Shown here piece by piece: positions 24,140-61,625 of a stretch of 64,000 nt of DNA (position 1 is its first letter; each line of letters begins with the position of its first letter). A program made the translations under genes and the position numbers. The stretch spans positions 129,501-193,500 of the forward strand of contig JAOTOM010005053.1 in assembly GCA_034440615.1 (NCBI GenBank), in the 5' to 3' direction. The notes beneath the pieces are model-generated. The model was not told where the DNA came from. It saw nothing but the letters and a program-made list of their open reading frames with translations, and did no database searches. The stretch is from Ashinkailepas kermadecensis (taxonomy: Eukaryota; Arthropoda; Thecostraca; Neolepadidae).

Positions 24140-24215
24140 GTGTGTGACGTCACAGCACCGTCAGCGCGGCCAGTTCACCTGCGACAACACACGCCGGTGT
24201 GAGCGTTAGCGTGAC
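24140..24215 (+). promoter_or_regulatory. Candidate 5' regulatory segment with CRE-like site, duplicated upstream
   Basis: A perfect TGACGTCA (24147-24154) lies about 110 bp before the ATG at 24268, in a segment with a second copy 1.6 kb upstream. CRE palindromes are bound by CREB/ATF factors. A promoter role is inferred from position only. Confidence 0.4.
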
Positions 24216-24267
24216 GGCTGTCCTACAGCAGTACTCGGTAGCTCCTGTGACACAGCCAGCTCTCAGC

Positions 24268-36282: not shown

Positions 36283-36568
36283 TGTGGAGTGAGTAGAACG
36301 CACACTCCACACTGTCTCCATGGCATGTTGCCAGAAACTTGTGCGTGTCGAAGAGAGCTTGTATTTGCAGAGAAGATCCAAGTGAGAGATTCCAAGTGAG
36401 AGAGAGAGAACAGTTTGCATGACACGTTATACACTAACAGACGACGTGTCCGAGTGCGGTTCGACAGCAGCAGCCCGTACGCACTCGCAATGATCTCAGC
36501 GAGGTCACGGGCGATACTGGCAAGCGGCCAGTTGTCTCTGCGCAGGCGCATAGCTTCGGCCCGCTACA
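36283..36568 (-). repeat. 3' LTR (286 bp)
   Basis: Intact LTR with TG...CA ends, nearly identical to the split copy at 38486-38764 plus 41421-41453. Confidence 0.85.
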
Positions 36569-36584
36569 GGTACCCCCCGCCCAG
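36569..36584 (-). promoter_or_regulatory. Candidate polypurine tract
   Basis: On the minus strand CTGGGCGGGGGGTACC abuts the 3' LTR. The position and G run fit a PPT, though the tract is not purely purine. Confidence 0.5.
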
Positions 36585-36739
36585 ACACGGCGCCGGCAAA
36601 GGTGACGTGGCGAACGACATGCCGCGCAGGGGTGATCACTGCACGGCCGGAGCGAGTGCGAAGGGCGGGCCGCAGCGCTGGCCCGACGGTGATGACGGCG
36701 GTGGCGGCGTTGGTGCGGGCGGCGGAGCGAAGTAGGCTG

Positions 36740-38485: not shown

Positions 38486-38764
38486 TGTGGAGTGAGTAGA
38501 ACGCACAGTAGAAGTAGAACGCGTGAGTAGAACGCACTGTCTCCATGGCATGTTGCCAGAAACTTGTGCGTGTCGAAGAGAGCTTGTATTTGCAGAGAAG
38601 ATCCAAGTGAGAGATTCCAAGTGAGAGAGAGAGAACAGTTTGCATGACACGTTATACACTAACAGACGACGTGTCCGAGTCCGGTTCGGCAGCAGCGGCC
38701 CGTACGCACGCGCAATGATCTCAGCGAGGTCACGGGCGATACTGGCAAGCGGCCAGTTGTCTCT
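38486..38764 (-). repeat. 5' LTR, first part (split by a LINE)
   Basis: Matches 36283-36568 apart from an insertion of a GAACGC-type motif near 38510-38530. It stops at CTCT, where the LINE begins. The remainder is at 41421-41453. Confidence 0.85.
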
Positions 38765-38765
38765 T

Positions 38766-40901
38766 TATATTCTTCAAACACAAAAACTAATCTCTCCTAT
38801 ACAATCAGGCTTTCTTCCTAATCGCTCATGTATAGACAACCTCACCTATCTCACCACACACATCCAGGAAGCGGCGGCCAGGAAATGCTCCACCGTCGCC
38901 GTCTTCCTGGATCTCAAACAAGCATATGACACTATCAGCATCACAGCACTCCTAGAACACTTACACAACATAGACATACAGGGCAGACTTATACACAACC
39001 TTCATTTCTATCTACCAAACCGCTCTTTCCAAGTAAAAATAGGACAACACACTTCAGACACTAAATTCCCCACAACCGGCCTAATGCAAGGTTCGGTTCT
39101 TAGTCCCCTTCTCTTTATTTTAGGTCTAAATTCAGTCATCACCGACAACCTTCCGGCCAAAATTGCAATCTACGCAGACGACATCGTAATCTGGACTTCA
39201 CAAAAATTACCAAACCACGCACTAGCAATACTACAGAACACACTAACAGAACTACACAACAAACTCGCCCTACTAAATCTACACATCGCACCACACAAAT
39301 CTAAATGTATGTTTTTCGGTTACCACAAACACACAGATGAACAACCACTAAAAATAGACCAGACACCCATACCATTTGTCACCAGTGCAAAGTTCCTCGG
39401 CATCACATTTGATCGACTACTCACCTTTCGGTTACACATCTTAGACATTCACAAACGCGCATCAAAAAGAATCAACCTACTACGAGCACTTTCTGGCACA
39501 CACTGGGGATCCGATAGAAACACACTTCTCACCCTCTACAAATCACTCATTCGGCCAATTTTGGAATACGGATCCCCACTCTTCGAAAACGCTGCTAAAA
39601 CAAACCTCAAACGTCTAGATAGCCTCCAACGCCAATGCATAACTATAGCCACAGGAGCATATATCACCTCACCATACCTTGCACTACATATATACTACCA
39701 CATACCAGAACTACAGCACAGACGCACACAAGCACTATTAAGATACCACTACAAAACGCAACTCATACCACAACACCCATGTACACAGGCCCTAAAACTT
39801 CGCACCACACGTGTCCATCAACTCATGACAACATCACGACTCAAAACCACAATAGGCTGCCGCATCCACCAACAGACAAACAGACTACACATTACCCTAC
39901 CCACAGCCAAACCATTACCAACACCCACAGCATGGTGGAAACACGAAACACTCGCAACACACTTCCTCATAGACCATCCAAAACACACATACACCGACGC
40001 AGAAATACACCAACTCTTCTTCCAATTCACAGCACAACATGCAAATTACAACATCATATACACTGACGGCTCGAAATCACATACACAGCAGACGGGCACA
40101 GCGGCGGTGCTGTACCACAATGCAGCACCGCCGCGGGTTATCCTTCGTGCCCGTCTGCACGACACAGCATCAACCTACACAGCAGAATTATACGCAATCT
40201 TTTCGGCTTACTCTACCATTTATAACACCAAAATTGAACACAACATCATAGCTACTGACGCCAAATCAGCATTACAAGGCATCACACCATACACCAAACA
40301 CAAACACCCACTCATCCCGAAAATACTCAACATACACCGAAACCTCACCGCACGACAAAGACCACTTCTTCTATGGATACCAAGTCACACAAACATACAC
40401 GGCAACGAACACGCAGACACGGAAGCGAACATAGCCACAACACTACCACAAATCACACCATGCCCACTCTCACAATCTGACTACTATCCCACAATATAAC
40501 AGGCACTTAACAAACACATACAACAAACATGGGACACAGCACTAACGCAACTTCATGAAATACACCCCATATACAAACCTTGGCACACCATCAACCAACA
40601 CACCAGACTCAAGGAACGCACTCTGACACGATTACGCCTCGGACACACAGCACTTACACACTCCTACCTCTTACTACAACGCCCACGACCACAATGCACA
40701 ACATGTCAACGAACACTCACTATCAAACACATACTCATCTATTGCACCAAATACAACACCGACAGGCAACACATCACAGATTACTGCAACACACACAACA
40801 TTCCACTAAACATCACTACACTTCTCAACGACGACTATCCAGCATTACACGAACTTCTCTTCCACTTTCTTTCTACGACACGCCTAATCGATCAACTGTG
40901 A
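38766..40901 (+). pseudogene. RT-RNase H polyprotein, one in-frame stop
   Basis: From the LINE start the frame reads ISPIQSGFLPNRSCIDNL, VAVFLDLKQAYDTIS, GSVLSPLLFILGLNSV, then IYADDIVIW (YADD active site, about 39170) and KFLGITFDRLLTF. RNase H follows with IIYTDGSKSH (about 40060), YTAELYAIFSAY, ATDAKSALQGI and LLLWIPSHTNIHGNEHADTE. TAA at 40497-40499 interrupts it. The same frame continues with a zinc-knuckle-like CTTCQRTLTIKHILIYC (about 40700) to a TGA near 40901. The open frame before 38765 belongs to the LTR. EN and the front of RT are missing. It is a recent but dead I/R1-type copy. Confidence 0.85.
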
Positions 40902-40914
40902 AAAAAGGAAAGAA

Positions 40915-40923
40915 AAAAGAAAA

Positions 40924-40981
<58 letters not shown>

Positions 40982-40988
40982 TATATAG
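40915..40988. repeat. Poly-A plus (TA)n microsatellite
   Basis: An A-rich run of about 20 followed by about 20 AT units. Probably the LINE tail region or internal slippage. Confidence 0.85.
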
Positions 40989-41457
40989 CCCGGGCAAAAG
41001 ACTGAAAATCGGGCAATCGAAAAATCGAGCAAAAAAGAAAAAAAGAAACAAACAAAACAAACATAACTACAAAACAAAAAACAAAACAAAACAACGTGTT
41101 CTTGCAATGTTCATCTATGGCGAGGACCCAACCCCAACCCACCCACTACACCCCATACCCCAATCTAGCACCGTCCGGACTGACAGCTTCTCTCGACTAC
41201 TTCATCTCCGGCTCTCAAACGACTCTTCTCTGCCATCTCTACCTCTTCAAACTCCAAGATCAACTCAACTCAACTCTTCAAGACGACTCCGACTCTACTC
41301 GAAAATATATCCACCACCCGGTAACTAATCCTCCTATCATTCTCCCACTCAACCACAGGAAACAGCCGACATCACCCACAGGTGGCAGGCTGGACAAACA
41401 CAACGTCACTCACACACCACCTCTGCGCAGGCGCATAGCTTCGGCCCGCTACAGGCT

Positions 41458-42240
41458 AATCGAAACCTACCTTCCAACCCGACTGCAAATCATGGAAGAC
41501 AGTTTCTGAAAATATGCCAGATTGGGTTGGGTGCCCCACGCAGATATATTTATTTTTTCCATAATAAATGAGAAATCTTAATGATTTTGCTCTCTCTTGT
41601 TCTTGTGCTGCACATTCTGTGTGGCTAGTTCCTAATCACAACAATGTTGTCGTTAAAAAAGCATGCAGCCATGTTGCATGGGTATTCACTGGTGGTGTAT
41701 TGTGAAAATTATATCGATATTTAACCTGCGTTTTGAACTGAATTTCACCGTTATGTGGATTTAGACTGCTAGTTTTCCATTGGGAATTTAGGCAGAAAAG
41801 CATGGAAATCTGGATGAGATATCAGTGATTCAGAGTGGCCAGGTACTTGTGCAAATTGGAGTATAATGAAGCTTCAGTCAGCAGAATGCAAGTGTATTGC
41901 ATAGATGTCACTCCCGCTTGTTTGCATTTTGTTTCCAAATTGTTTTTGGTAGCGCGCCAGATTTGTCATACTGTTATCTCCCTCCCAGTAGTTCAACGTG
42001 TCTGCCGATAGGTGGCAACGCTTTCGCCTTGAACGGTCATTTCCATTTTCGGCGTGGATATGTTCAATTATATTCCACTTTCGACCTTGTTCCATTGGAA
42101 CCAATTTCATTTTCGACATTGTTCCATTCGGCATTAGTCCAGCGCCTCCAATCCCCAGCTACTTTTCGACATTGTTCCATTCGATGCCATTCCAATCCCT
42201 CAAATATTCGAATAGATGATTTCACTTTCGATCTTGGTCC
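41458..42240. other. No gene recognised
   Basis: Flank of the LTR element, then TTCGACATTGTTCCATTCG-type repeats from about 42070. No domain seen. Confidence 0.5.
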
Positions 42241-44955: not shown

Positions 44956-45184
44956 TGTATTATGCTCTGCAGCCGCGACGGCACCATCGCCGCACTTCGT
45001 CACCTCCAGGACTAGATATAATTGCGCACAATCACATCCGAACGCGCCAGAGAACGCACTTGTTAGGAAAAGCACGCGGCTATCTACGGCTGGTCGCGCA
45101 GCACGCGCGCTGCGCAGACGGCAGTGTCGGCCGTCTGCTGCGCGACTGCTGCGCGTGTTCTGCACGCTTGCTGCGCACGCCGGA

Positions 45185-45317
45185 CGGTAGCAGCTGGCGC
45201 ACGGTATGGACGGTAGCAGCTGGCGCACGGTATGGACGGTAGCAGCTGGCGCACGGTATGGACGGTAGCAGCTGGCGCACGGTATGGACGGTAGCAGCTG
45301 GCGCACGGTATGGACGC
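45185..45317. repeat. 26-bp minisatellite, 5 copies
   Basis: Perfect or near-perfect copies of GGTAGCAGCTGGCGCACGGT followed by ATGGAC. Confidence 0.92.
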
Positions 45318-46927: not shown

Positions 46928-47040
46928 TCAAACCACCAGCTGGGACGCCGTCGTGTTTGTGTGATTGGTGCACGGAAACCGCAGAAGCTCCGCCCCCAGC
47001 AGAGTGATTGGCCGAATCGAATGGTGTCGAAGCAGTTCAT
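46928..47040 (-). CDS. SH2D4: SH2D4-like exon E: end of SH2 domain and stop
   Basis: Acceptor ATGTTGCAG|AT. With the final G of exon D the first codon is GAT. It reads ELLRHHSIRPITLLGAELL then RFPC, close to the SH2D4 C-terminal pattern (LV..H...PIT.LG.ELL..PC), and ends in TGA (46928-46930) after about 13 further residues. Phase 1 fits exon D. The repeat array 47041-47515 touches its acceptor. Confidence 0.83.
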
Positions 47041-50000
47041 CTGCAACATGAGGTCAGAGACAGGAGTAACATCAGGTCAGAGACAGGAGTAACATCAGGT
47101 CAAAGACAGGAGTAACATCAGGTCAGAGACAGGAGAAACATCAGGTCAGAGACAGGAGCAACATCAGGTCATATACGGGAGCAACATCAGGTCAGATATA
47201 GGGTTCAGGTCAGAGCAACATCAGGTCAGAGACAGGAGTATATCAGGTCAGAGACAGGAGAAATCGGTCAGAGAGGAGCAACATCAGGTCAGAGACAGGA
47301 GCAACATCAGATCACAGATAGGAGAAGCAACGGATCAGAGATACGAGGAACACCAATTCAAATATAGGTGCAACATCAGATCAGAGGCAAGAGCAACACC
47401 ATGTCGGACAGAATCAACGTCAGGTCCAAGACAGGAGAAATATAAGGTCAGAGCCGAGGGGAACAACAAGTCAGAGACAGGAGAAGCATCAGGTCAGGGA
47501 CAGAAGCAGCCATGCTTGTAATCTATGTCCCTTGCTTATGTCCCTTACTTTTATTCCTTACTTATATCCCTTACTTACATCCCTTACATATATCCATTGC
47601 ATATATCCCTTACATATATCTAGTGCATATATCACCTACATATATCCCTTATTTATATCCGTTATTTATGTCACTGTAAGAGCGCGCAAGCACACACTCT
47701 ACTTTGTGCATCAATAATGTTAACTACCTGATAAATTTGGTTACTTTGTTACTTTTTTATTTCTGCGTTAGAATGGGAACAAGAAAAAACAAACTTGTGC
47801 CTGACCATAACACGAGGTCTTGGTTCATATCTCACACATTCTGGTCTGCTGGCACGGACAGCTGTGTCACCAGCTGACCATAACCCGACGTCTTCAGTCG
47901 CTGGCCATATTTCACACATTCTGGTCTGCTGGTACGGTTTTGCGAGGAATACATGGCTCTTTCCTAGCCTCAAGAAAATGCTAGCTGCTCCTCCGAGTAC
48001 ACGAAGCTGAAGTGTCCCAGATTGGGCCACAAATTATGAATGTGCATACGCGTGGCTTTGCGGAGTTGATGCGACAATGAAGCATTGTGCAATGCACGCC
48101 CAAGTTTGTGTTCTCCCTACACCACGTCCACCGCAGTGGTGTCAGCGACCCCAGAGCACCGTGAACAACATAAAATCAGAGACCGATCGCGCGGGTGGAC
48201 AGCACGACCTGTCGAATGTGCTGTGACGTCAGCACTGGCGAGGAGTGACGTCATCACGGAGTGGGCAGCCAACAGGCGCCGAGTTTGCCACATGGTTACC
48301 GGAGAACTGGCCCATGAGTGAAGCATGGGTTCGTGGTCGCATCAGCTATACACGGCAGTGTTGTTTGGATATTTTGACTTGATGGCGTAGTCGTCACAGT
48401 GGCGTGGTCGTCACATGTTAAAACCAGGCAACGTCGTGTTCGGAAGTGAAGGAAGGAAGGCAGGCACGCACGCCAGTCTCTCAACACAACTTAACTAAAC
48501 ACTCAGTCGCTGCAAACACTTACAATCCAACTCGTAAGTCGATTGCAAGTATTTAACGTTGGCGAAAACTGCTTATTGAGTGTTCGACTAAGGCAGTTTT
48601 TCACCGGTGTTGAACGCTTACAATCGGACTCACCAGTTCGATTTTCACTTATCACCCACGGCGTATGAGAATCTTCGAGACAACAATGATCTATTGTCGA
48701 CACGACATAACACCGATTCGACGGACCATGCCCACATTACGATGCTACTCACTTCCAACAACACATCAGATTCCCATGCCGATGTCCGGTGTCCCAGCAG
48801 CACGCACGGCACCTATCTCCCAGCCCACAGTCACCTATCTCCCAGCCCGCAGTCACCTATCGTCCAGCCCGCAGTCACCTATCTCCCAGCTCACAGTCAC
48901 CTATCTCCCAGCCCGCAGTCACCTATCTCCCAGCCCGCAGTCACCTATCGTCCAGCCCACAGTCACCTATCTCCCAGCCCGCAGTCACCTATCGTGCGGA
49001 AGTGGCGCTCGGCGTTTCCGTAGAACTGGTAGCCGGCGCCGGTGGCCTTCACCAGGAAGTGTTTGCACCGCCTCTGACAGCGGTAGGACAGCGTGTAGCC
49101 CCACAGCCGGAGGGAGCAGCGCACCAGGTAGGCGCCCGGCGGGCACGGCAGCAGTCGCTGCTCCGCCTCCGCTCTGCCCACCATACCTGGTGTCACGGGC
49201 AGGCGTCAATGGCGACCTCTGGTCACGGTCATTCCTGATAGGCAGGCGTCAATGGCGACCTCTGGTCACGGTCATTCCTGATAGTCGAGGAAGAACGTTT
49301 GGTTGTTTTGCGACGCTTTCGGCTGCCAGGCCACGATGCGTCGACAATCACTGAGGTCAATCGGTCGCGGGGTCATCGCTGTGACGGGTCATGTCATCGC
49401 CGCGGCAGGTCAGGTCATCGTCGTGGCAGGTCAGGTCATCGCCGTGGCAGGTCAGGTATCGTCGTGGCAGGTCAGGTCATCGTCGTGGCAGGTCAGGTCA
49501 TCGCCGTGGCAGGTCAGTTCATCGCTGTGACGGGTCATGTCATCGCCGCGGCAGGTCAGGTCATCGTCGTGGCAGGTCAGGTCATCGCTGTGACGGGTCA
49601 TGTCATCGCCGCGGCAGGTCAGGTCATCGCTGTGACGGGTCATGTCATCGCCGTGGCAGGTCAGGTCATCGCCGTGGCAGGTCAGGTATCGTCGTGACAG
49701 GTCAGGTCATCGTCGTGACAGGTCAGGTCATCGCCGTGGCAGGTCAGGTCATCGCCGTGGCAGGTCAGGTCATCGCCGTGGCAGGTCAGGTCATCGTCGT
49801 GGCAGGTCAGGTCATCGCCGTGGCAGGTCAGGTCATCGCCGTGGCAGGTCAGGTCATCGCCGCGGCAGGTCAGGTCATCGTCGTGACAGGTCAGGTCATC
49901 GCCGTGGCAGGTCAGGTCATCGCCGTGGCAGGTCAGGTCATCGCCGTGGCAGGTCAGGTCATCGTCGTGATAGGTCAGGTCATCACTGTGGCAGGTAGAG

Positions 50001-53000
50001 CGCAGCTCGTTTGGACCATGGCTGAGGAGACGGGCCCTGCATTTGAGATATGTCGGCAGAGAAGAAAGAGATAATGGTGTTCGAGGCGCACGCTCGTCGT
50101 GCGGGGAATGCGTGGCACAGAATCGGCACATCAACACTGGGACAATGTCCAAGTTGGAAAACCACACATTGCCTGACGAATACCTCAAGCGATCTCGCCA
50201 TCAATTATGTTGCGGCACATCTCGTCACGTTATAAATGTGACGTCACGCTATAAATGTGACGTCACGGTATATAGATCATACGGCATACATGTCAGCAAG
50301 CGAATAAATTATCAGGGATACAGTCTCGTCTGTTCAGTAACGTCTGGAACACACGCCTCTGGGCTTAGTCTGAATGGTGTCAGCGGGCACTATTCAATGC
50401 ATCTTCAGCTGGACAGCTACTCGACGACGCAACCGGGCCACCTCCAGGTGGCGAGGAGGGGGGGGGGGGTGTCATCGTTGGAAGTGCGAGGGTACATTAA
50501 CGACATGTTGCGACCATTTTTATACTCAACTTTCGCGAGCTTTTCTGTTCAGAGAGCTTGAATATCGAATATGGAAAGGCTTGTTGGCTCATCTTACGAT
50601 AACTTTAATCACAAACATGGCCAGGCGAGGTTTCGAAGTGTCATTGCGTGGGTGAGTCAGTGTGAGCATATCAGTGTATCAGTGTGTCAGTGCATCAATA
50701 TGTCAGTCTGGCAGTCCATCAATGTGTCACTGTGTACGTAGGTCAGTGTGTCAGTATAGCAGCGTATTAGCATGTCAGTATGTCAGTGTATCAGTGTGTC
50801 AGCATGTCAGCATATCAGTGTATCAGCATGTCAGTGTATTAGTGTGTCAGTGTATCAGCAGGTCAGTGTTTCAATATATCAGCGCATAAGTATGTCAGTA
50901 TATCAGTGTGTCAGTATACCCGTGTGTCAGTATACCCGTGTGCCAGTATATCTGAATAGCAGCGTGTCAGTATCTCAATGTGTCAGTGTATCAGTGTGTC
51001 AGTCGGCTGTACCTACCGTGGAACCAGGGCGCCGCCCGACCTGTCAGTCGGCTGTACCTACCGTGGAACCAGGGCGCCGCCCGACCTGTCAGTCGGCTGT
51101 ACCTACCGTGGAACCAGGGCGCCGCCCGACCTGTCAGTCGGCTGTACCTACCGTGGAACCAGGGCGCCGCCCGACCTGTCAGTCGGCTGTACCTACCGTG
51201 GAACCAGGGCGCCGCCCGACCTGTCAGTCGGCTGTACCTACCGTGGAACCAGGGCGCCACCCGACCTGTCAGTTGGCTGTACTTACCGTGGAACCAGGGC
51301 GCCGCCCGACCTGTCAGTCGGCTGTACCTACCGTGGAACCAGGGCGCCACCCGACCTGTCAGTTGGCTGTACCTACCGTGGAACCAGGGCGCCGCCCGAC
51401 CTGTCAGTTGGCTGTACCCACCGTGGAACCAGGGCGCCACCCGACCTGTCAGTTGGCTGTACCTACCGTGGAACCAGGGCGCCGCCCGACCTGTCAGTCG
51501 GCTGTACCTACCGTGGAACCAGGGCGCCGCCCGACCTGTCAGTCGGCTGTACCTACCGTGGAACCAGGGCGCCGCCCGACCTGTCAGCGCGTCCACCCCC
51601 GCCCCCTTGGGCAGCTGGGTCAGCTGGTACCAGCGCACCACGTCGGCGCGAGCCAGTGGCGAGACGTCGCTGGTGCAGCTCATCTCGTCATCCAGCACAC
51701 TGCCGACACACGTCAGCATACGCCAGCATACGTCAGCACACATCAGCACGCGTCAGCACATTTCAGTAAATATCACTGCATCCAGGATCTCATTGTCATC
51801 GTAGTTATTCTTGCATACATTACATTATGCATGGCACATGAGTGCATCCCTCATTATCGGCCATTTCAGTAAATATCACTACATCCAGGATCTCATTGTC
51901 ATCGTAGTTATTCTTGCATACATTACATTATGCATGGCACATGAGTGCATCCCTCATTATCGGCCATTCGTGTGAGCACACCTGCGTACACCAGAGGCAC
52001 CTTGTGTTTTGCTGAAAGCGAGGGACTGCCAGCGAGGCCATACTCCCCAGGAGCCATGCATGGGCCATGCGGGTGCTTACAGCAGATGCTCATCTGAACA
52101 CTGAACCCGAATCAAATGCTAGAATTACCAGCATGTCAGCTGGTAAAAACAGAGAAGATATAGCAAGCAATATTTCTGTGTAAGAACAAATCTACAAAAT
52201 AGGGTGTGTTTACCCGTCCGCCGATCACCGGCGTACAGTGGCGCATCAAGAGGATAGTTTTTTGTTAACAATACCAAGAATACTATTTTACTTCTTCTAC
52301 TACCCACTGAATGACCACATCTCTATTGAGTATGTTCCCTGACGGTAATCGAGCTCCTCTGCCCAAGCTGACGCACGCATCCCTGATTCGGGTGCGGATG
52401 CGAAATTGCAGAACTAGATTTTCCTTATTCCTGCAATTTCTGCACTTCCAATAAAACATGGTACAATGAGGTGAGCTTCTTCATAGGCGTCGAAACAGCA
52501 CCGTTGCAATTTTTCAGCCCACGAGTTCCCTCCTCGGTATGGTGCCCGATCCTGCTCCTGCTTCACGGAATCCACACTAGTCCGCCCTGTGTCCGAGCTT
52601 CTCGCCAGTATTTGAGCTCCCCTAGATGTCTCGTCTGTACCTGAGGTCCTCATCTATCCCTGAGTTCATCTGGGTATATCATCTGCACCTGAGGTCCTCA
52701 TCTGTCCCTGAGATCATCTGAGCTCCTCGTCTGTACCTGAGTTCCTCATCTGTCCCCGAGTTCCTCGTCTGTACATGAATTCCTCATATCTACCTGAATT
52801 CCTCATATGCCCCTGAGTTCCTCACCTGGAGCGCTCACTGCTCGTCTCAAACAGCTGATTCCAATCCACGCTGGCCACAGAGCCGCACGGCGACAGTGGC
52901 GCCGTCCAGTGGCCGGCCGGTGCTGCCATCTGCGCAGCGCCAGCCGAAACTTGCGGGAGGTTGAGCGGCGCCGGCGAGAAGCTGTTGGCCGCTCGGCCGT

Positions 53001-56000
53001 CCCAGCTGGCCGGCGGCAGCGTGGCGCTCTGTCTTTGGTGCTGGCCGGGCGCCGGCCGGCGACCAAAGCCACGGCCGCCGCGGCTGTCGGCGAGCGTGTT
53101 AGCCCTGCCGGCGTACACAGCGTCAGCCGACCAGACGGACGGAGGCGATGGAGACGCGGTCGACCAGACGGACGGAGGCGATGGAGACGCGGTCGGCGGA
53201 GGCGCGGGCGAGCCCCACGAACGCTGCGGCTGCTGCCGCTCCGGGTCGTGGTCAGGTGGGCGGTAGGCTGGATACTGGCGGCGCTGGCGTTCCTGCTGAA
53301 GCTGCTGCTGGTGCTGCTGCTGCTGCAGCTGCGGCTGCGGGTGCGGCTGGTGCTGCTGGCGGTGTTCGGGCGCGCGCCACGGCTCGGCCGGACCGGCCGA
53401 CGTCCTGGCGTCCTGCCAGCGCTCCTGGCTCCGCCTGCCGGCCGGGCTCGACTGGCGCGACGACCGCGACTCCGGTTGCCACGGCGACGGCGCGGTTGCC
53501 ATGGTGACCGCCCGGTGCGCGCTGCCGCCGTCCCAGGCGTTCTGCGGCTGCTGGTCGGCGTCAGCGGCCGGCGACAGCGGAGACATCTGGCGCTGAGCCG
53601 AAGAAGCTCGTGAGCCGGTCAGCACGGGTCCCGCCTGTGGGGAAATACCACAGCTATGTGGGGAAATAGCATAGCTCTGTGCGGAAATACCACAGCTCTG
53701 TGGGGCAATACCACAGCTCCGTGGGGCAATACCATAGCTCTGTGGGGAAATAGTACAGCTCTGTGGGACAATATCATAGCTCTGTGGGGAATAGCATAGC
53801 TCTGTAGAGAAATACCACAGCTCTGTGGGGAAATACCCCAGCTCTGTGGGGAAATACCTCAGCTCTGTGGGGAAATAGCACAGCTCTGTGGGGAAATAGC
53901 ACAGCTCTGTGGGGCAACATCATACCCAGCTCTGTTGGGCAATATCACAGCCCAGTGGTGAAATACCACAGCTATGTAGGGAAATACCACAGCTATGTAG
54001 GGAAATACCACAGCTCTGTCGGCCATTGCCACAACTCTGTGGCGAAATCACAGCCAGCTCTGTGGGACAATACCACAGTTCCGTGGGAAGTACCACATGA
54101 CCCCACAAACCCCACAAAGCTGCAGCTTTGTGGGGAAATGTTACAGTTACGTAGGGAGATAGCACAGCTCTGTGTGAAAATATCACAAGTATGTGTGGAA
54201 ATACCACAGCCCAGCAAAAAGCACTCGCGTTCTCGAATCTCACCCGAATTGAACCGCCTGCTTCAGGATGAGAATAATCGAATGGGGTTATCATTAAAGC
54301 AGCTCAGGATTGTCAGGATGACGGATTGTGCAGGACGACGGATTATCATGATGACGGATTGTCAGGATGTCGGATTGTCAGGATGACGGATTGTGGAACG
54401 TTCTACGGGCTCTGATTCCTGATATTGGTCCATTCAATGGGAGCTGTAGTGAGAGGTGTAGTGAGAGCTGTAGTGGAAGCTGTAGTGGGAGGTGTAGTGG
54501 GAGGTGAAGTGAGAGCTGTAGTGGGAGCTGTAGTTGATGTTGTAGTTTGAGTTGTAGTGGGAGGTGTAGTGGGAGCTGTAGTGGGAGGTGTAGTGAGAGC
54601 TGTAGTGGAAGCTGTAGTGGGAAGTGTAGTGGGAGGTGTAGTGGGAGGTGAAGTGAGAGCTGTAGTGGGAGCTGTAGTTGATGTTGTAGTTGGAGTTGCA
54701 GTGGGAGGTGTAGTGGGAGGTGTAGTGGGAGGTGTAGTGGGAGGTGTAGTGGGAGGTGTAGTGGGAGGTGTAGTGGGAGCTGTGGTTGGAGTTGTAATGA
54801 GAGGCGTAGTGGGAGATGTAGTGAGAGCTGTAGTGGAAGCTGTAGTGGGAGGTGTAGTGGGAGGTGTAGTGGGAGGTGTAGTGGGAGATGAAGTGAGAGC
54901 TGTAGTGGGAGCTGTAGTTGAAGTTGTAGTTGGAGTTGTAGTGGGAGGTGTAGTGGGAGCTGTAGTGGGAGGTGTAGTGGGAGGTGTAGTGGGAACTGTA
55001 GTGGGAGCTGTAGTGGGAGCTGTAGTGAGAGGTGTAGTGGGAGCTGTGGTTGGAGTTGTAATGAGAGGCGTAGTGGGAGCTGTAGTGAGAGCTGTAGTGG
55101 GAGCTGTAGCGGCAGGCGTAGTGGTAGCTGCAGTGGGAGCTGTAGCAGGAGCTGTAGCGGCAGGCGTAGTGGTAGCTGTAGTGGGAGCTGTAGCAGGAGC
55201 TGTAGTGAGGGCTGCTGTAGTGGGAGGCGTAGGTGGAGCTGTAGTGGGAGCTGTAACGCACCAGTGCGTGCTGCGCAGACATCAGTTGATGCTGCCACTA
55301 CGTACCCGCTCTGTGATGTGTCGGTGTTTCTCGCGGCTTTCCGTGCCGATCCTGCTGATCTGGCTGTCCACTTCGTCAGGATTGTCCTCGGATTCTGACG
55401 GCAGTCGGACCCGTCACTCACGGCCCGGCACTGTGTGCATCGTTGTCAACTCCACTCAGTACAATCATAGCATTGCCTGTGGTGTACGCAGGCCAAAGTC
55501 CCATACGAATTGCCGCGTTGCGGAGCCATGCGTGGCTGATCACAGTGCGACACGTTGCCGCTATATAAAAACAACTTTATAAAAACAGCAACAAACAACT
55601 CATCACAACAACACAAATGTGTCCGACAACAGGGACCCACCAGCACTACAGAAAGCCAAGCTGGCTGCATTACGAGAGCCATGTTATGGCTCATTATGAG
55701 AGCCATGTTGGTTTGTTCAGCCTCTGGGTGGGGAGGGGTTTGAGGAGCCTAAAAAAGTGTGACGAGTCGAAAGAGAGAGAGATCAGTTCCAGCATCCAAA
55801 TTAATCCCAGAATGAGAGCGGACAAAAAGTTTCACTATGCAAAATATCCCAGAGCTGTAAATGCTTATCTGTTGCCAAGCAGGGTCATTAAGCTCAAATG
55901 AACTCGGAAAGGTGTTGAATTAGAATACAATGAGTCTGCAATACAACACTATAAATAAAAGCCATGAAGATTGCAGTTGGTGTCATATTTCGAGCACAGC

Positions 56001-59000
56001 AGACGTCAAAACCAATATTTACCCGTAATCCCCAGCTGATGCTGATTAACCCGGGCACCATTCGCGCCAGAACTGTAGCCTCTGCCGGGGCTGCAGCTTC
56101 TGCCGGGACTGTAGCCTCTGCCGGGGCTGTAGTCGCTGCCGGGACTGTAGCTTCTCTCGGTTCCTCCACAGATGCTGCGCTGGCCGTGCGCCTGCAGTAG
56201 ACCCTGCTCCAGCGGCTGCCCCTCCCATAGTGCGATCTGGCGTGACACCACCTCCTGAACACGTGCAGGGCGCAGACGGGTCAGGGCGCCTCAGGCTCAG
56301 ATACGTGACACGGGCAGGGCGCAGACGGGTCAGGGCGCCTCAGGCTCAGGTGACCTCAGACAGTGGCCCCAGGCTCAGGTGACCTCTGACATTGGCCACA
56401 GGCTCAGGTGGCCTCGGACAGTGGCCCCAGGCTCAGGTGACCTCCGACATTGGCCACATGCTCAGATGGCCTCGGACAGTGGCCCCAGGCTCAGGTGACC
56501 TCTGACATTGACCTCAGGCTCAGATGGCCTCGGACAGTGGCCCCAGGCTCAGGTGACCTCCGACATTGACCTCAGGCTCAGATGGCCTCGGACAGTGGCC
56601 CCAGGCTCAGGTGACCTCCGACAGTGGCATCAGGCCCAGATGGCCTTCGGCAGTGGTGCTCTCAAATCCTCGCATGTCTACAGGTGACACAAATTCACAC
56701 AAATGTTTACTCCAAGATGCAGCCAATTCACCAACAGCCATGCAGGCTTCGTACGAATCACTAGCTCTGATTTGAAACGCCGGACACATTTCCGTCAACG
56801 GGCCACACAAGAAAAGCCTTGGGCTCTTCTACGACGCAAGGTCAATTCAACTGCAAGGTCAAATAGCGTCGCTATTTGAGGTCAAATAGCCACATCGATT
56901 GGTCGCGGGTGGACTCGGTAGTGCCGCCGGTTGTGAGATTCGAACCCACAATCTTGCGATCAAGAGTTGGACACCCTACCGACTGAGCTACCGCGGCCCC
57001 AACGGGCCACAAACCGCTGACTCATGCGTGGCCGTAGAGGCGACTTTGTGATCAGCGCCCTCTTGTTGTGACCGCGGGAACGATGTTCAGTGCGTTTCCC
57101 GTGCTTTCGTTAGTGAACAACCTATTGTATGCCATGATGCTCTTCAACATGTCTTGTTGTGGAAACCTCGAGCGTGCTGTTAACAAAATAACTTCGGGCT
57201 TAAAAAACGTCCCCCTGGTAGAGTGCAGGTCGGAACAGTCACCTTGGTTTCCATGACGACGATAGCACGCCGGAAGATGACGGCACTCCTTCACCACATC
57301 AAGACACCCAGATAACAGTCCGTGCCAAAGACAAACCAGGCCTCCCCTGCACACCAGGGCAGGCAGCAGGGGCGGATACAGAGCGGGGAACTCGGGGCAT
57401 GCGCCCACTCCCATGAAAGGTGGCGCCCCTCCGGCCTTGAAAGTGCCACTTCAGGAAGGCTCGAGCGCACCCCACCCCCACGTTCAATGATTTGGGTTTT
57501 TTTCCAGACAAAGTCTTTTAGGTTCTATCGCCTAAGGTGCCTCTTTGCCCCATTTAGAGGAAAAGGCGACCCTGTGAGACGAAAAGGTTCCCCTGCGGTA
57601 CTCTCGAATGTATCCCCGCTGAATGTATTTTGATTGTTCTTCTGCCGAAGGCGCCACCCAAGCAAATGTGCCCCTCCCCATGACAATTCCTGGATCCGCC
57701 CCTGTAGGACAGGCAGCAGGAGCGCAAGAGCCACCAGCAGTCTACCACACCTTCGCACAACACACGAACAGGACCGGTGAAGACATTAGCAGGTCACCCA
57801 GTACTCCATCAACCTCGCCATGGTTCAGAGCGAAAGTCACCCATCCGACAGAGTGTGTTAGCGAAGACTCGCTCACGGTTAAAGAAGGTCGGCTTACTGT
57901 TAATGAAGTCCGGCTTACATTTGTGTTATCGCCCGCGGCAAGCAGCCAGTCTCCGACCACCAAGCGAGTCCAGTTAGCACTACCGTTTTGCCCAGCTGTC
58001 CATAGATGGCTCGCATTGTGCTGCAGCGGATTGAGCCCGGCGAAGGGCGATGCAGTAGCTACCTGGCCCTAGAAGACGACGAGTCGGTCAGGTGCGGTAC
58101 AGATGGCGGGGTGGACAAATGGCAGAGAGGTGGAAAAAGTGCCAAATGTGGGACTTCTTTTGCATCAATTGTGATACTACGTGCCTCTTTCAACCATGTC
58201 GACGCATCCACCTCCGCCACTCTGTCTGAATTTTCAGCTTTTACCCTTCGCTTCATGGTTTCGCAACAACCCGAGCCGGCCACCTGCTGAGTGGCTGTCC
58301 AGTCACTGGAGTGGAGGGGGTTGGGCGGGAAACTGTGGATCACATGTTCGTGACGTGTATATCAGTGGAAACGATCAATGCAATTTTGTGAAAAGGACTG
58401 TGGGACGGTGAAAGGTTTCAATTTGCTATTCAGTGGTATTCGATTACAACTTGGTGTAAGCACTCCCATGGGCATAAAAGTTCAGGATTCCATACCCCTC
58501 CTCATCAGATGTAGTAATTAATGTACTCAAACATAATAGGCAAATTGATACACGATAATTATGCAACAGGATGGTTTATGGCTACGAAATTGTTCATAAA
58601 ACTCCAGCATTTGGCGATTAGGTCATTGCATGATATTATCATAGTATATTTAACCATTATTTAGGTGCTATGTACATCATATGTCAATAATTAGATTCTT
58701 CTTAACGAGCTAAGTGGTGATTGAACGTTAGCAAGTCATCCAACATCGGGCCAACATTGGGACAACATTGGGCCAAAATTGGACCAACATTGGACCAACA
58801 TTGGACCAACATTGGGCCAACATTGGGCCAACATTGGGCCTACACTGGGTAGACATTGGGCCGACATTGAGTCGATATTGGACTGATATTGCGTCGACAT
58901 CGGGTCAACATCGAGCTGACATTGGGCCGACATCGAGCCGACACCCGGCCGAAATTTGGGTCGACATCTGACCGCCATCTGGTCGATATCAGGTTGACAT

Positions 59001-61374
59001 CGAGCCGATATCGAGGTCATCTGTGTGGCTCGGTCACGACTTTACAGCCTGGCAGGGCCAGCGGGAAGTAGGCAGTTGTGATTGCGATCCAACGATTGCG
59101 AATAATGCGGAAGTGGGCAGAACCAACAAGACTTAAAGCAAAAGTGCCGCTAAAAATGTTTTATTTTTACCTGTTGTGCCTGAAGTGACCGCGAGCGTTC
59201 GCCTTCCTCATCCTCTCGTCTTTTCCGCCACATGCTTGTCCTGTTCAAGCTCTCCAGTTCTCCACCATCATAACTCCGCCTCCTCCAGTCGCCGGCGATG
59301 GTGCCACCTCTCGGCACGACGTCGAAGCTGCGGTTCAACTCGCGCCGCTCGGCGGCAGAACCGGCCGGCCGCCGGGCCTGGCTCTTGTCGACCGAGTTCT
59401 GCAGCGACGCCATGGCCTCCTCGACCGACCTGAGGCAGATCTCGAGCTCGTCGTCCAGCGGGCTGGGCGAGCTGGTGCCCGAGTCAGCCTGCCGCTCGGA
59501 GCCGGCGCAGGACGAGTCGCAGAGCGACGGCGACGGCAGGCCCGAGTCGGACGCCGACGCCGACCAGGTCGAGCTGTCCGGCCGCGCCGGCGGCGAGTGG
59601 AAACTCTGCTGGAACGAGTGGCGTACCCGACCGTCGGCGGACGACGCCGTGACAGCTGCGGCTGTGGCGGCTGCGGCCGCAGCAGCAGCAGCAGCAGCAG
59701 CAGCAGCTGTGGCGGTGGCTGACCCCTTGTCGGTGGCGGCCAGGGACAGGAGGTAGGTCCTGGGCGGCAGCTCCGGCTTTCGGCCGACATTCGCCGTCTG
59801 CGGGACACACCTCTGACGAGCTGCGCCGCTGGTGACGTCATCACCGGAGGCGGGTCGCGAGTGGGCGGGGTCCGGCAGCTGACGGTCGCGCGCGACGGCT
59901 GGCTGCCAGGCCGGGCTAGGCTGCCGCCGGTCAGCAGAGCCGGCGCTGGCAGGGGCGGGCGCGCTCTCCGGCTGAGCGTCCGGCTGCCACTCCGGAGCCC
60001 CGCTCACGGACGGTGACGTCACCGGCGGCAGACCGCCGATTGGCCGTCGGCGCAGCGTGTCCCTGTATCTGCCCTGCAAGCTCAGCGCGGTCGCGCCCTC
60101 TTCCGCTTTCGCTTCCGAAGCCGTGCAGAACAGCCTGCTCCACGTCGACTTGGGCGCCAGCTGACGGCTACCGACGTCCTCGTGCGATGTCGGAGTCCCG
60201 GTGACGTCATCGGGCGACGTCAGAGCCGGCTGACGCCGCGCCGGGCGTGGCGTCAGGTGCCAGAAGTCCTCCTCGCTGGGGTGGGTCGAGTCGTTCTCGG
60301 CGACCTTGACCAGCGCAGGCGGCGGCTCGTCGCCGACGGCGGCCAACGAGAACACGGTGGTGGTGCCATCTGTCGGTAGCCGGCGCAGGCTTAAGTTGGG
60401 TGACTGCGCGCCAGGGGACGGCCCGAACGGCTTCAGGGCGACGGACGGAGCGGCCCGTTGCGGCCACACCTGGCCGGCCTGGGGCGGGACCGGTGCTCCG
60501 CCGTCGCCGCTGGTCGCCGCTGCCGGCCGCCAATCGACGGAGCCCAGCTGCGGGGAGGGTGTGAGGGCGGGCGACTCGTGCCATGGCCGAAGGTCGGCAG
60601 AGCCCAGCTGGGGGGAGGATGTGACGGCTGACTCGTGTCGCGGCCGCCGATCGCCAGAGCCCAGCTGGGGGGAGGGTGTGACGGCTGACTCGTACAGCGG
60701 CCGCCGATCGACGGAGCCCAGCTGCGGGGAGGGTGTGACGGCTGATTCGTACAGCGGCCGCCGATCGACGCAGTCCAGCTGTGGGGAGGGTGTGACGGCG
60801 GGCGACTCGTGTCGCGGCCACCGATCGACGGAGCCCAACTGCGGGGAGGGTGTGACGGCGGGCGACTCGTGTCGCGGCCGCCAGTCGGTGGCCGTGTTGT
60901 CGTAGTACTCGGGCTCCGCGCGGCTCGGTCGACCGCCGGCCGCCGGTTCGCCCCTGGGCCACCACGACGGCACGGACGCCGGCCCGACGCCCATTGGCCG
61001 GTCGGCCGCGCGCCGGCCTCCGATTGGCGGAGAGGCCGCGGCTCCGCCCACGCGCTGGCCGCCGATTGGCGCCGCTGCGCTGACGCCGCCCTGATGTGGT
61101 GACGCGGCCGCCGCGCTCGAGCTTCCGTTGGCGTCCGGGTAGTGCACCACTCCCGCGATGTGACCTTGATCTTGACCCAGGAGAGCCTGAGGCGAGAGAC
61201 TCTGATCGGCTGGGAGTGCCGGAGCTGCTGATTGGACCAGCCCTCCGGTCGACCTCGAGTCGCCGGCGCGCGGCCACCAGGAGGGCATGCCATCGGCGGC
61301 CTGGGTCACTGCGCTGCGGGAGTCATCTGGTGGCGGCGAGTCGGACTCCAGTTTGAAGGTTACCCGCTTGGGAC
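46928..61374 (-). CDS. SH2D4: SH2 domain-containing protein 4 (SH2D4A/B-like), 3' five exons
   Basis: Assembled exons A-E (described separately) encode about 1155 residues, with the N-terminal exon(s) beyond the window edge. Order: RVTF motif at about residues 4-7, a long disordered Pro/Ser/Ala-rich region with coding repeats, a Q-rich segment, then the conserved pre-SH2 helix (ADVVRWYQLTQLP) and a C-terminal SH2 domain at about 1050-1145. The phosphotyrosine-binding Arg is in AYLVRCS, residue about 1075. Vertebrate SH2D4 proteins have the same C-terminal layout but only about 430-450 residues. This one is much longer because of exons A and B. The family is a cytoplasmic SH2 adaptor, and SH2D4A is also listed as PP1 regulatory subunit 38. 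Intron phases 1, 0, 2, 1, 1 all agree. Minisatellites sit at most junctions. Confidence 0.85.
47041..47515. repeat. Minisatellite of about 23 bp touching the exon E acceptor
   Basis: Plus-strand unit AGGTCAGAGACAGGAGTAAC plus ATC, about 20 degenerate copies. On the minus strand each unit gives a pyrimidine-rich CTCCTGTCTCTGACC followed by TGATGTTGC. The real acceptor is CATGTTGCAG, so the array provides the pyrimidine tract and near-copies of the junction. Confidence 0.88.
47530..47680. repeat. Degenerate ATATCCCTTAC-type tandem repeat
   Basis: Units of about 10-11 bp built on TATATCCCTTACA, within intron 4. Confidence 0.75.
47681..48817. other. Intron 4 of the SH2D4-like gene, no exon recognised
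   Basis: Includes a duplication of about 75 bp around CACACATTCTGGTCTGCTGG (about 47833 and 47914) and a short direct repeat of GAACACT/ATCGACTT-type sequence near 48500-48640. No further coding exon is needed between D and E because their phases and SH2 sequence join directly. Confidence 0.6.
48818..48988. repeat. 22-bp minisatellite starting at the exon D splice donor
   Basis: About 8 units. On the minus strand each is ACGATAG|GTGACTGCGGGCTGG, or has GAGATAG in place of ACGATAG. Seven bases come from the exon end and 15 from the intron start, so every unit repeats the donor. 22 is not a multiple of 3. Confidence 0.92.
48989..49186 (-). CDS. SH2D4: SH2D4-like exon D: core of the SH2 domain
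   Basis: Acceptor GACACCAG|GT, donor CGATAG|GTGACT, phases 1 and 1, 198 nt. Together with exon C the junction codon is G|GT (Gly), giving PWFHG-MVGRAEAEQRLL. It then reads PPGAYLVRCS, GYTLSY, CKHFLVKATGAGYQFYG and HFRTI. These are the SH2 strands including the FLVR-type Arg, the GY-LSY strand and the KHF/YxF region characteristic of the SH2D4 group. No residue expected to be essential is missing. Confidence 0.9.
49190..49282. repeat. 43-bp tandem duplication beside the exon D acceptor
   Basis: Two near-identical copies of a unit starting GGCAGGCGTCAATGGCGACC. On the minus strand each holds CCGTGACCAG, similar to the true acceptor CCGTGACACCAG, so it may be another boundary duplication. Confidence 0.8.
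49377..49998. repeat. 21-bp minisatellite, about 29 copies, AGGTCA-rich
   Basis: Unit GTCATCGCCGTGGCAGGTCAG with CGTCGTGACAGG variants, in intron 3. ORFs over it are repeat products. Confidence 0.93.
49999..50654. other. Intron 3 interior, no exon recognised
   Basis: Contains a duplicated TATAAATGTGACGTCACG phrase (about 50231-50270) and a G run near 50460. No supported frame. Confidence 0.55.
50655..50999. repeat. Degenerate 10-bp-type repeat (TCAGTGTATCAGTGTG)
   Basis: Imperfect decamer units that run directly into the 45-bp array, in intron 3. Confidence 0.82.
51000..51584. repeat. 45-bp minisatellite, 13 copies, each with a copy of the exon C splice donor
   Basis: On the minus strand each unit contains GCGCCCTGGTTCCACG|GTAGGT, i.e. 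exon C's last codons (APWFHG) plus the donor, then about 16 intronic bases. The unit is exactly 15 codons and has no stop in the exon C frame. The unit nearest the exon body is the exon's own end. Unit 7 from the exon has GTAAGT (51281-51286), the best consensus donor. Unit 4 has a G at donor position 3 (GTGGGT). The other 11 have GTAGGT. Confidence 0.95.
51557..51699 (-). CDS. SH2D4: SH2D4-like exon C: pre-SH2 helix and SH2 start
   Basis: Acceptor GTCGGCAG|T, phase 2, matches exon B. It reads SVLDDEMSCTSDVSPLARAD, then VVRWYQLTQLPKGAG, and ends APWFHG at the first copy of the 45-bp repeat. 143 nt with donor CCACG|GTAGGT. The pre-SH2 VxRWxxxxQLP...PWFHG pattern is characteristic of SH2D4 proteins. 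Up to 12 more donors downstream could extend the exon by multiples of 45 nt. Exon D joins in frame in every case. Confidence 0.85.
51700..51760. repeat. 10-bp repeat at the exon C acceptor
   Basis: On the minus strand, units of TGTGCTGACG/TATGCTGACG run up to CGGCAG|TGTGCTGG. The first exon bases themselves continue the repeat pattern. Confidence 0.8.
51761..51966. repeat. 103-bp direct tandem duplication
   Basis: 51761-51863 and 51864-51966 are near-identical, starting TTTCAGTAAATATCACT. In intron 2. Confidence 0.93.
51967..52619. other. Intron 2 interior, no exon recognised
   Basis: No supported frame. Confidence 0.5.
52620..52825. repeat. Minisatellite of about 21 bp starting at the exon B splice donor
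   Basis: On the minus strand the donor CTCCAG|GTGAGGAACTCAGG is followed by degenerate units such as TTCAGGTAGATATGAGGAAT and CTCAGGTACAGACGAGGA. Several keep CAG|GT(A/G)-type donor look-alikes. Confidence 0.82.
52826..53634 (-). CDS. SH2D4: SH2D4-like exon B: disordered Q/P/R-rich segment
   Basis: Acceptor TATTTCCCCACAG|GCG, donor TCCAG|GTGAGG, 809 nt, phases 0 and 2. It reads AGPVLTGSRASSAQRQ, then Ser/Pro-rich sequence, a Gln-rich block (HQQQLQQERQRR), PPDHDPERQQPQRSWG, two copies of SPSPPSVWS, and ends DWNQLFETSSERS. No folded domain is seen. It is included because its splice phases match A and C exactly and it is long and open. The overlapping plus-strand frame 52807-53613 is a shadow. 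Confidence 0.8.
53636..54195. repeat. 21-bp minisatellite, about 26 copies, each with a splice-acceptor copy
   Basis: On the minus strand the unit is GAGCTGTGGTATTTCCCCACA plus the start of the next, so each copy carries a pyrimidine tract and AG (TTTCCCCACAG). The last copy is the real exon B acceptor. Confidence 0.92.
54433..55255. repeat. 12-bp minisatellite, about 68 copies
   Basis: Unit GTAGTGGGAGGT or GTAGTGGGAGCT with variants, in intron 1. Long frames in all phases (HYTSHYTS, LPLHLPLQ and VVGGVVGA types) are products of the 12-bp period and not proteins. Confidence 0.95.
55256..56065. other. Intron 1 interior, no exon recognised
   Basis: No supported frame. A short repeat of GAGAGCCATGTT occurs at about 55674 and 55698. 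Confidence 0.5.
56072..56165. repeat. 18-bp minisatellite, about 5 copies
   Basis: Unit close to CTGTAGCCTCTGCCGGGG. Confidence 0.88.
56235..56640. repeat. Minisatellite of about 29/58 bp
   Basis: Alternating units of CAGGCTCAGGTGACCTCCGA plus CATTGG.. and GCCTCGGACAGTGGCCC.., about 7 double units, decaying on the left side. Confidence 0.88.
56826..57000 (-). mobile_element. tRNA-like SINE or tRNA pseudogene
   Basis: On the minus strand from about 57000: box A-like TAGCTCAGTCGGTAGGGTG, box B GGGTTCGAATCTC, and a good T arm (GTGGG/CTCAC). The anticodon arm is not foldable as a 5-bp stem with a 7-base loop, and the acceptor stem pairs only in part. A non-tRNA body follows, containing the perfect palindrome at 56860-56878 (CAAATAGCG, T, CGCTATTTG). 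Confidence 0.68.
57001..57366. other. Intron 1 interior, no exon recognised
   Basis: A short frame, MTAGTMFSAFPVLSLVNNLL (57068), has no recognised domain. Confidence 0.45.
57367..57704. mobile_element. hAT-like MITE, 338 bp
   Basis: The left end CAGGGGCGGATACAG matches the reverse complement of the right end, CAGGGGCGGATCCAGGAATT. This is the well-known hAT-type terminus. No transposase. An exact 8-bp TSD was not found. Confidence 0.72.
57705..58739. other. Intron 1 interior, no exon recognised
   Basis: A short repeat of GTTAATGAAGTCCGGCTTAC-like sequence occurs near 57880-57920. No supported frame. Confidence 0.5.
58740..59005. repeat. Minisatellite of about 10-11 bp (CCAACATTGGG / CGACATTGGGC)
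   Basis: Degenerate units that drift from CCAACATTGGG to CGACATCGAGC types, near the 5' end of intron 1 about 165 bp from the exon A donor. Confidence 0.85.
59171..61374 (-). CDS. SH2D4: SH2D4-like exon A: long disordered exon with RVTF motif and coding repeats
   Basis: Acceptor CTGCTTCAG|GT, donor CAACAG|GTAAAA, 2204 nt, phases 1 and 0. It begins PKRVTFKLESDS, aligning with the conserved VHWKL-type segment of SH2D4 proteins; RVTF fits the PP1 RVxF rule. Then come WWPR motifs (MPSWWPRAG, VPSWWPRGE), six copies of a 19-20-residue unit (RPRHESPAVTPSPQLGSVD type), Pro/Ser-rich sequence, a poly-Ala tract encoded by (GCT)n, a predicted helix (DDELEICLRSVEEAMASLQ) and a charged end (MWRKRREDEEGERSRSLQ). 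Length and GC-rich codon use suggest an expanded linker. Confidence 0.8.
59684..59716. repeat. Coding (CAG)n/(GCT)n trinucleotide run
   Basis: About nine perfect GCA/CAG triplets on the plus strand encode poly-Ala on the minus strand of exon A. Confidence 0.88.
60533..60895. repeat. Coding minisatellite in exon A, unit about 57-63 bp, 6 copies
   Basis: In-frame units around GGAGCCCAGCTG and GAGGGTGTGACGGC encode PRHESPAVTPSPQLGSVD-type repeats. Unit lengths are multiples of three. Confidence 0.9.
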
Positions 61375-61399
61375 CTGAAGCAGTGCAGCCAGTTTCAGT

Positions 61400-61625
61400 T
61401 GACTCAGTTCGCTTTAACAGCTAACACCTGTCAACTCAGCCAGAGTTGACGGCTGGCCCCGACAGTTTACAGTTAGCCCACAGTTAACAGATGATTCCGA
61501 CAGTTGACAGTTTACACATACAGTTAGCAGATGACCTCGGCAGTTGACAGTTAACACCGACAGCTAATTGCTGATGGTTGGCAGCTTGCAATTGATAGTT
61601 GACACCGACATTTGACAGCTTCCCA
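61400..61625. repeat. Minisatellite upstream of the exon A acceptor
   Basis: Degenerate units such as CAGTTGACAGTTAACACCGA and CAGTTAGCAGATGA. The array ends about 25 bp from the exon A acceptor. Unlike the others its unit holds no obvious acceptor copy. Confidence 0.85.

Follow-up and report, generated by a model that had tools for sequence, protein, structure and literature searches.

Boundary-spanning minisatellites ("mirages") at splice junctions of a barnacle genome

Minisatellites whose repeat unit joins exon and intron sequence across the boundary, the structure defined in amphioxus as a "mirage", are present in the genome of the barnacle Ashinkailepas kermadecensis, where we found them at two donors of an SH2D4-like gene and at 11 of 174 splice sites surveyed in CCT, myosin and kinesin genes. 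The excess of such spanning arrays at junctions is at most weak. Probably, tandem duplication acts throughout this genome nearly blind to gene structure, with selection retaining only the copy on the exon side.

The SH2D4-like gene lies on the minus strand of the window (the whole stretch of 64,000 nucleotides that was analysed) and comprises coding exons A–E (Table 1). Reading phases agree at the B/C, C/D and D/E joins, and the A/B join has an open frame only. Exon D by itself gives a partial Pfam SH2 match (35.6 bits), while splicing exons C, D and E yields a complete one (profile positions 1–77 of 77, 55 bits), and the C-terminus of the predicted protein is an SH2 domain related to SH2D4/HSH2D. 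Matches include SH2D4B proteins from Pollicipes and from Myotis, as well as PDB 2cs0 (hematopoietic SH2 domain containing); the best of the four matched proteins is Pollicipes pollicipes "SH2 domain-containing protein 4B-like", with 76% identity over 117 aa. The Pollicipes model covers the C/D junction, and its match begins at the first codon past the B/C join. The model diverges after exon D, so the D/E join is supported by the domain and the reading phase.

Table 1. Coding exons and tandem arrays of the SH2D4-like gene, in window coordinates (↓, splice point).
Feature	Position	Strand	Description
Exon A	59171..61420	−	Coding; frame open from 61420 (the ORF limit); donor CAACAG↓GTAAAA
Exon B	52826..53634	−	Coding; phase matches that of exon C
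Exon C	51557..51699	−	Last residues PWFHG, the predicted SH2 domain start
Exon D	48989..49186	−	Predicted SH2 domain core (Pfam PF00017)
Exon E	46928..47040	−	Stop codon included; predicted SH2 C-terminal part DELLRHHSIRPIT
57-bp (19-codon) tandem array	60524..60882	−	~6 copies, within exon A coding sequence
21-bp array, exon B acceptor	53635..54097	−	~22 copies, ends exactly at acceptor
19-bp / 48-bp array, exon B donor	52634..52828	−	Begins at donor TCCAG↓GTGAGGAACTCAGG; AG↓GT copies loose
10-bp array, exon C acceptor	51707..51760	−	5.4 copies, 7 bp off acceptor
45-bp array, exon C donor	50997..51587	−	13 copies, 97% matches
43-bp perfect pair, exon D acceptor	49198..49284	−	11 bp away; acceptor not clearly in unit
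22-bp array, exon D donor	48798..48993	−	8.9 copies, spans donor; units hold GATAG↓GTGACT
23-bp array, exon E acceptor	47043..47508	−	21 copies, abuts acceptor

Seven of the eight coding splice sites lie no more than 11 bp from a tandem array (TRF score at least 50), at distances of 0 bp (B acceptor, B donor, C donor and D donor), 2 bp (E acceptor), 7 bp (C acceptor) and 11 bp (D acceptor). The original observation that arrays lie at nearly all junctions of the gene thus largely stands, the exception being the exon A donor, which is 162 bp from the nearest array; at the stricter score of at least 80, six of the eight sites are near arrays. As had also been noted, the units (21, 19, 10, 45, 43 (×2), 22 and 23 bp) differ in sequence, although the B donor unit measures 19 bp rather than the approximately 21 bp first reported. 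A strict test for junction copies (a 16-mer across the junction with at most two mismatches, within 120 bp) identified only the C and D donors, two of the eight junctions, and at both of these the array genuinely straddles the boundary. The C donor unit combines ~31 bp of the end of exon C (GRAAPWFHG codons) with the donor, and the whole array is open in frame. Similarity across the junction is weak at the B donor (shuffle P 0.009) and the C acceptor (P 0.007) and not significant at the D acceptor (P 0.075). At the B acceptor the junction coincides with a unit boundary, and CACAG ends three of the five displayed units, without exon bases; this array is in frame with exon B and open up to 53919 (the exon-proximal 285 bp). 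The final unit of the E acceptor array is in register to the AG, which is absent from the four other displayed units. The claim that the units carry the splice site itself therefore holds strictly at the C and D donors and loosely at the B acceptor, B donor and C acceptor, and is not clearly borne out at the D and E acceptors. The different units, at donors and acceptors alike, agree with the proposal of independent tandem duplication at several exon–intron boundaries.

Nearness by itself is weak evidence, because arrays (score at least 50) occupy 40%–70% of each intron of this gene; under random rotation, P was 0.07 for seven of eight sites near arrays and 0.29 for six of eight at a score of at least 80. 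Compared with the unselected rate of 23/174 sites within 30 bp of an array, seven of eight gives P=5e-6, but the gene was chosen for that feature. Arrays (score at least 80) average 22% of the 264 kb around the window, with 15%–35% in the 10-kb bins holding the gene and up to 64% in the bins beyond it.

The window holds further repeated and element-like sequence. A 26-bp array at 45182-45316 has 5.2 copies at 100% identity and is probably young. On the plus strand, a 614-aa open frame at 24148-25989 is built of tandem 84-bp units, which we take to encode C2H2 zinc fingers, and open frames at 2648-3974, 10905-13277, 33303-35477 and 38625-40898 (+), several of them interrupted, presumably resemble LINE-type reverse transcriptases. 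The same sequence appears twice at 36377-36732 and 38602-41500 (the TCCAAGTGAGAGAT pair and ..SRAILASGQLSL..); the second copy is broken by a reverse-transcriptase-like element, and its continuation, RRRIASARYR, resumes near 41.4 kb, which suggests an insertion with an empty copy alongside.

In the same genome (908 Mb), we listed exon matches for the CCT, myosin head and kinesin families, picked adjacent exons by profile continuity, blind to repeats, and located splice sites from GT-AG dinucleotides, reading phase and the continuity of the profile. The exon matches used were 42/52 for CCT, 44/78 for myosin and 40/125 for kinesin; those left out were non-contiguous, on second contigs or not taken up (including 20 kinesin regions). 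The survey comprised 32, 26 and 29 introns, respectively (87 introns, 174 splice sites), with protein profiles continuing across the surveyed junctions; the splice calls are imperfect, with a negative summed score in 4/87 introns and a small profile shift needed in 17/87. Arrays spanning the junction with 5–50 exon bases were found at 11 sites (6.3%; five CCT, two myosin and four kinesin), comprising six donors and five acceptors, and an array lay within 30 bp at 7, 6 and 10 sites of the three families (TRF score at least 40). Scripted TRF counts give 10/174 rather than the 11/174 of the listings, one CCT array being missing from the scripts. Examples include the C3687 donor, where a 68-bp unit repeats CGACCTCTACATCTCCGAG↓GTGGGTCAC six times, the C4646 acceptor (40-bp unit, seven copies), and one kinesin exon (C3588:68798-69575, L112) whose two ends each carry a boundary-spanning array, with units of 74 bp and 57 bp. 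AG or GT splice signals are present in the copies, with the exceptions of the C4679 acceptor (0/2) and the displayed outer units at the SH2D4-like exon E acceptor. At one further acceptor (C4125:219645, minus strand, L135), near-exact junction copies lie at −73 and −140, and TRF reports no array near the site.

Enrichment of arrays within 0–30 bp of splice sites, the test originally proposed, was not found at the 174 sites, where coverage in that range is lower than deeper in the intron. Arrays cover 8.8% of sequence at 1–20 bp from the splice site, 13% at 21–40 bp and ~17% beyond 60 bp, and since coverage drops toward splice sites, arrays do not cluster near them; coverage is 17% of intron DNA 60–200 bp from splice sites versus 3.5% in exons 11–30 bp inside the junction. 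For spanning arrays, the fair control is an interior point 3–55 bp inside an array edge. Against this control, TRF counts gave 10/174 junctions versus 2.4%–2.7% of interior points (P 0.010–0.022) and, for overlaps of 5–30 bp, 6/174 versus 1.0%–1.25% (P 0.009–0.023), a marginal 2.1- to 3.4-fold excess. The excess over random points of the 264-kb contig was 1.9-fold for overlaps of 3–50 bp (P=0.04) and 1.7-fold for 5–30 bp (P=0.14). In a TRF-free k-mer test, a copy of the junction 16-mer was found at 12/174 sites (6.9%) versus 4.9% of interior edges (1.4-fold, P=0.15), whereas the interior rate for any 16-mer copy was 11.8%; with three mismatches allowed, junction copies occurred at 15/174 sites versus 14.2% for any interior copy. 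An earlier, smaller control with merged arrays (6/116 versus 2.0%, P=0.03) is superseded by these larger ones. Across all tests, the frequency of junction-spanning arrays was 1.4- to 3.4-fold that of the controls, with P from 0.15 to 0.009 depending on the definition. Donor-word repeats are numerous genome-wide, with 1194 matches to CAGGTGAGTN{6,36}CAGGTGAGT versus 467 to the reversed pattern (2.6-fold), an excess without clear meaning, since many matches share one array and the count is not normalised to single words, which real donors make commoner; in the 264-kb contig such words are too scarce to supply a denominator for donor-word pairs.

These measurements bear on the idea that splice junctions are hot spots, at which the AG↓GT sequence, R-loops or pausing, or reseeding from the anchored exon copy would favour duplication or persistence. 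The TRF excess over interior points, the donor-word pairs and the different arrays at the same junction described below (in kinesin relatives and, as judged from a peptide, at the exon C acceptor of SH2D4) would all be expected of hot spots. However, the excess shrinks in the k-mer edge test and in the contig-wide control, coverage by arrays falls toward the junction, and the pattern count carries the contribution of real donors and of multiple matches per array; we therefore regard hot spots as rather unlikely.

Homologous junctions were compared in relatives. Two kinesin loci, C3728 and C4571, both carry arrays at the same donor, with a 63-bp unit including 48 exon bases in the former and, in the latter, a 41-bp unit of which 20 bases are exonic and the intron half is unrelated. 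Because their identity is 89% over 135 bp, they are more likely paralogues than alleles, a reading that carries a caveat from the high coding diversity reported, in the portion of the paper available to us, for the barnacle Balanus improvisus (PMC8270832). At the SH2D4 exon C acceptor, a peptide from an ENA contig (P0004) continues across the acceptor; a 35-bp tandem repeat fits its first 31 residues, with one incompatible position of 58 for this period against at least 18 for other periods (those with at least 60 compared positions), and none of 5000 shuffles fitting as well. Judging from the peptide, its source would thus have a 35-bp repeat in place of the 10-bp unit found here. The remaining comparisons did not show different arrays in both members: a kinesin exon in C3402 (127485-128013, L130) carries a 61-bp array at its acceptor, 51 exon bases included, and copies at its donor, both absent from C3549, and the C4204 donor array is absent from its apparent relative C3389. 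The C3402 acceptor is not among the 174 sites. Different arrays in both members were therefore found at two of five homologous junctions (one of them peptide-inferred), a higher proportion than ~6% would give, although the pairs were picked after one member had been found to carry an array. Where both members carry arrays, these apparently arose independently.

Paralogue-like pairs differ in their junction arrays, and the probable alleles C4646 and C3901 share a common 40-bp array with the same copy number, 98.5% identity and differences in single units, an agreement that argues against misassembly. In the CCT gene of these two contigs, the distance between matched exons across one intron is 2.9 kb in one contig and 6.1 kb in its counterpart. 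That exon boundaries were wrongly assigned, or that the arrays are assembly artefacts, might be supposed from exon ends that were predicted from sequence, with some junctions placed by splice-site scores. Yet joining the SH2 exons yields a full domain, the Pollicipes match supports the B/C and C/D joins, the probable alleles are concordant, and profile continuity bounds the CCT, myosin and kinesin exon ends, leaving this account extremely improbable.

Junction arrays could instead be kept since the extra splice-site copies are useful, serving as back-up sites or creating in-frame isoforms (candidates being the 45-bp array at the C donor and the 21-bp one at the B acceptor). The open frame through the whole C donor array and the exon-proximal part of the B acceptor array would suit such a role, as would the retention of GT or AG in 45 of 50 junction copies at 12 strict sites, in a search allowing at most four mismatches and so biased to intact copies. 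Unit length is a multiple of three in 6/11 spanning arrays (P=0.12, the unselected set) and in 8/18 when the window's seven are added (P=0.22), so unit lengths have no significant tie to codon multiples. Some arrays are, moreover, missing in relatives, and both C4679 acceptor copies have lost the AG, and we consider retention for usefulness very improbable.

We infer, instead, near-blind tandem duplication as the more probable origin of these arrays. A mirage would then be a minisatellite founded by a tandem duplication that by chance took in, or lay next to, an exon–intron boundary, in a genome that presumably makes ~10–75 bp tandem duplications throughout its non-coding DNA, some of which it amplifies. 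Duplications within coding sequence would mostly be purged, incompletely so given the 57-bp coding array of exon A. A duplication spanning a junction would be tolerated, because the exon-adjacent copy still supplies the correct exon end and splice site and the extra copies are intronic; the intron would lengthen and gain decoy sites, with the exon-proximal site presumably chosen by exon definition. Selection would hold the exon-edge copy only, anchoring the array, and outer copies would drift, so that units would differ between junctions and homologous junctions could gain arrays independently. The abundance of arrays away from splice sites and a frequency of near-exact junction copies about equal to that at interior edges favour near-blind duplication, while the marginal TRF excess, the arrays beside seven of eight sites in the window gene and the two of five homologous junctions count against it. 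It is nonetheless the simplest account of different units, of donors and acceptors alike, of presence in one relative and of a frequency near that of interior edges. The account is compatible with a junction effect; the recurrences at homologous junctions suggest one and do not prove it. Tentatively, minisatellites in this lineage may even arise at junctions again and again, with the constrained copy at the exon edge serving as a permanent seed; arrays of different sequence would then appear, disappear and reappear at the same junction in paralogues and species, and so drive intron length. We find this possible, if doubtful.

If ~6% of junctions hold extra, often intact copies, this genome is a natural test case for the way in which the spliceosome chooses among near-identical sites, and for intron growth. 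The work brings the mirage phenomenon to an arthropod in which it can be counted. Our search of open-licence papers found no report of mirages outside amphioxus in the text available. Among barnacle genome papers, the words "tandem" and "satellite" are absent from the accessible parts of PMC8270832 and PMC8917513; in those of the others, "tandem" refers to gene duplicates (PMC11331182) or occurs once each in an unrelated "tandem repeats" (PMC8416341, PMC9582164). The portions available of PMC12783039, PMC6905558 and PMC4039745 describe intronic minisatellites and no junction copies.

Ordinary intronic minisatellites, such as those of abalone TSSK1-like intron 3 and Caenorhabditis elegans CeRep25B, are comparable, as far as the accessible text describes them, in unit size and in copy-number growth within introns (PMC6905558, PMC4039745), but in the barnacle 11/174 sites have an array that takes in coding bases along with the functional splice site. 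Tandem duplication with splice signals is likewise involved where introns are gained from duplicated AGGT-containing exon segments, as in potato RdRp (PMC4974935, consulted in part), whereas the barnacle arrays lengthen pre-existing introns and no new intron was shown. The closest system is that of the amphioxus mirages (Adh3, TnC, the globins BflGb6 and BflGb9, and PGBD5), which, in the sections available, are tandem units across exon–intron boundaries, from 10–72 bp (Adh3) to ~157 bp, with variable copy number and splice signals in many units (PMC3087553, PMC3902484), and are said to leave regular splicing undisturbed (PMC3087553). The predicted likeness to these mirages is upheld, as the structure matches (PMC3087553), with boundary-spanning units at donors and acceptors and splice signals within the units; the accompanying suggestion that the barnacle pattern is broader in affecting both donors and acceptors is not, since the legend to figure 6 of PMC3087553 already gives duplication at 5' and 3' boundaries. 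Relative to amphioxus, as described in those sections, the differences here are a measured frequency, different arrays at homologous junctions, and a single barnacle gene with arrays beside seven of its eight coding splice sites.
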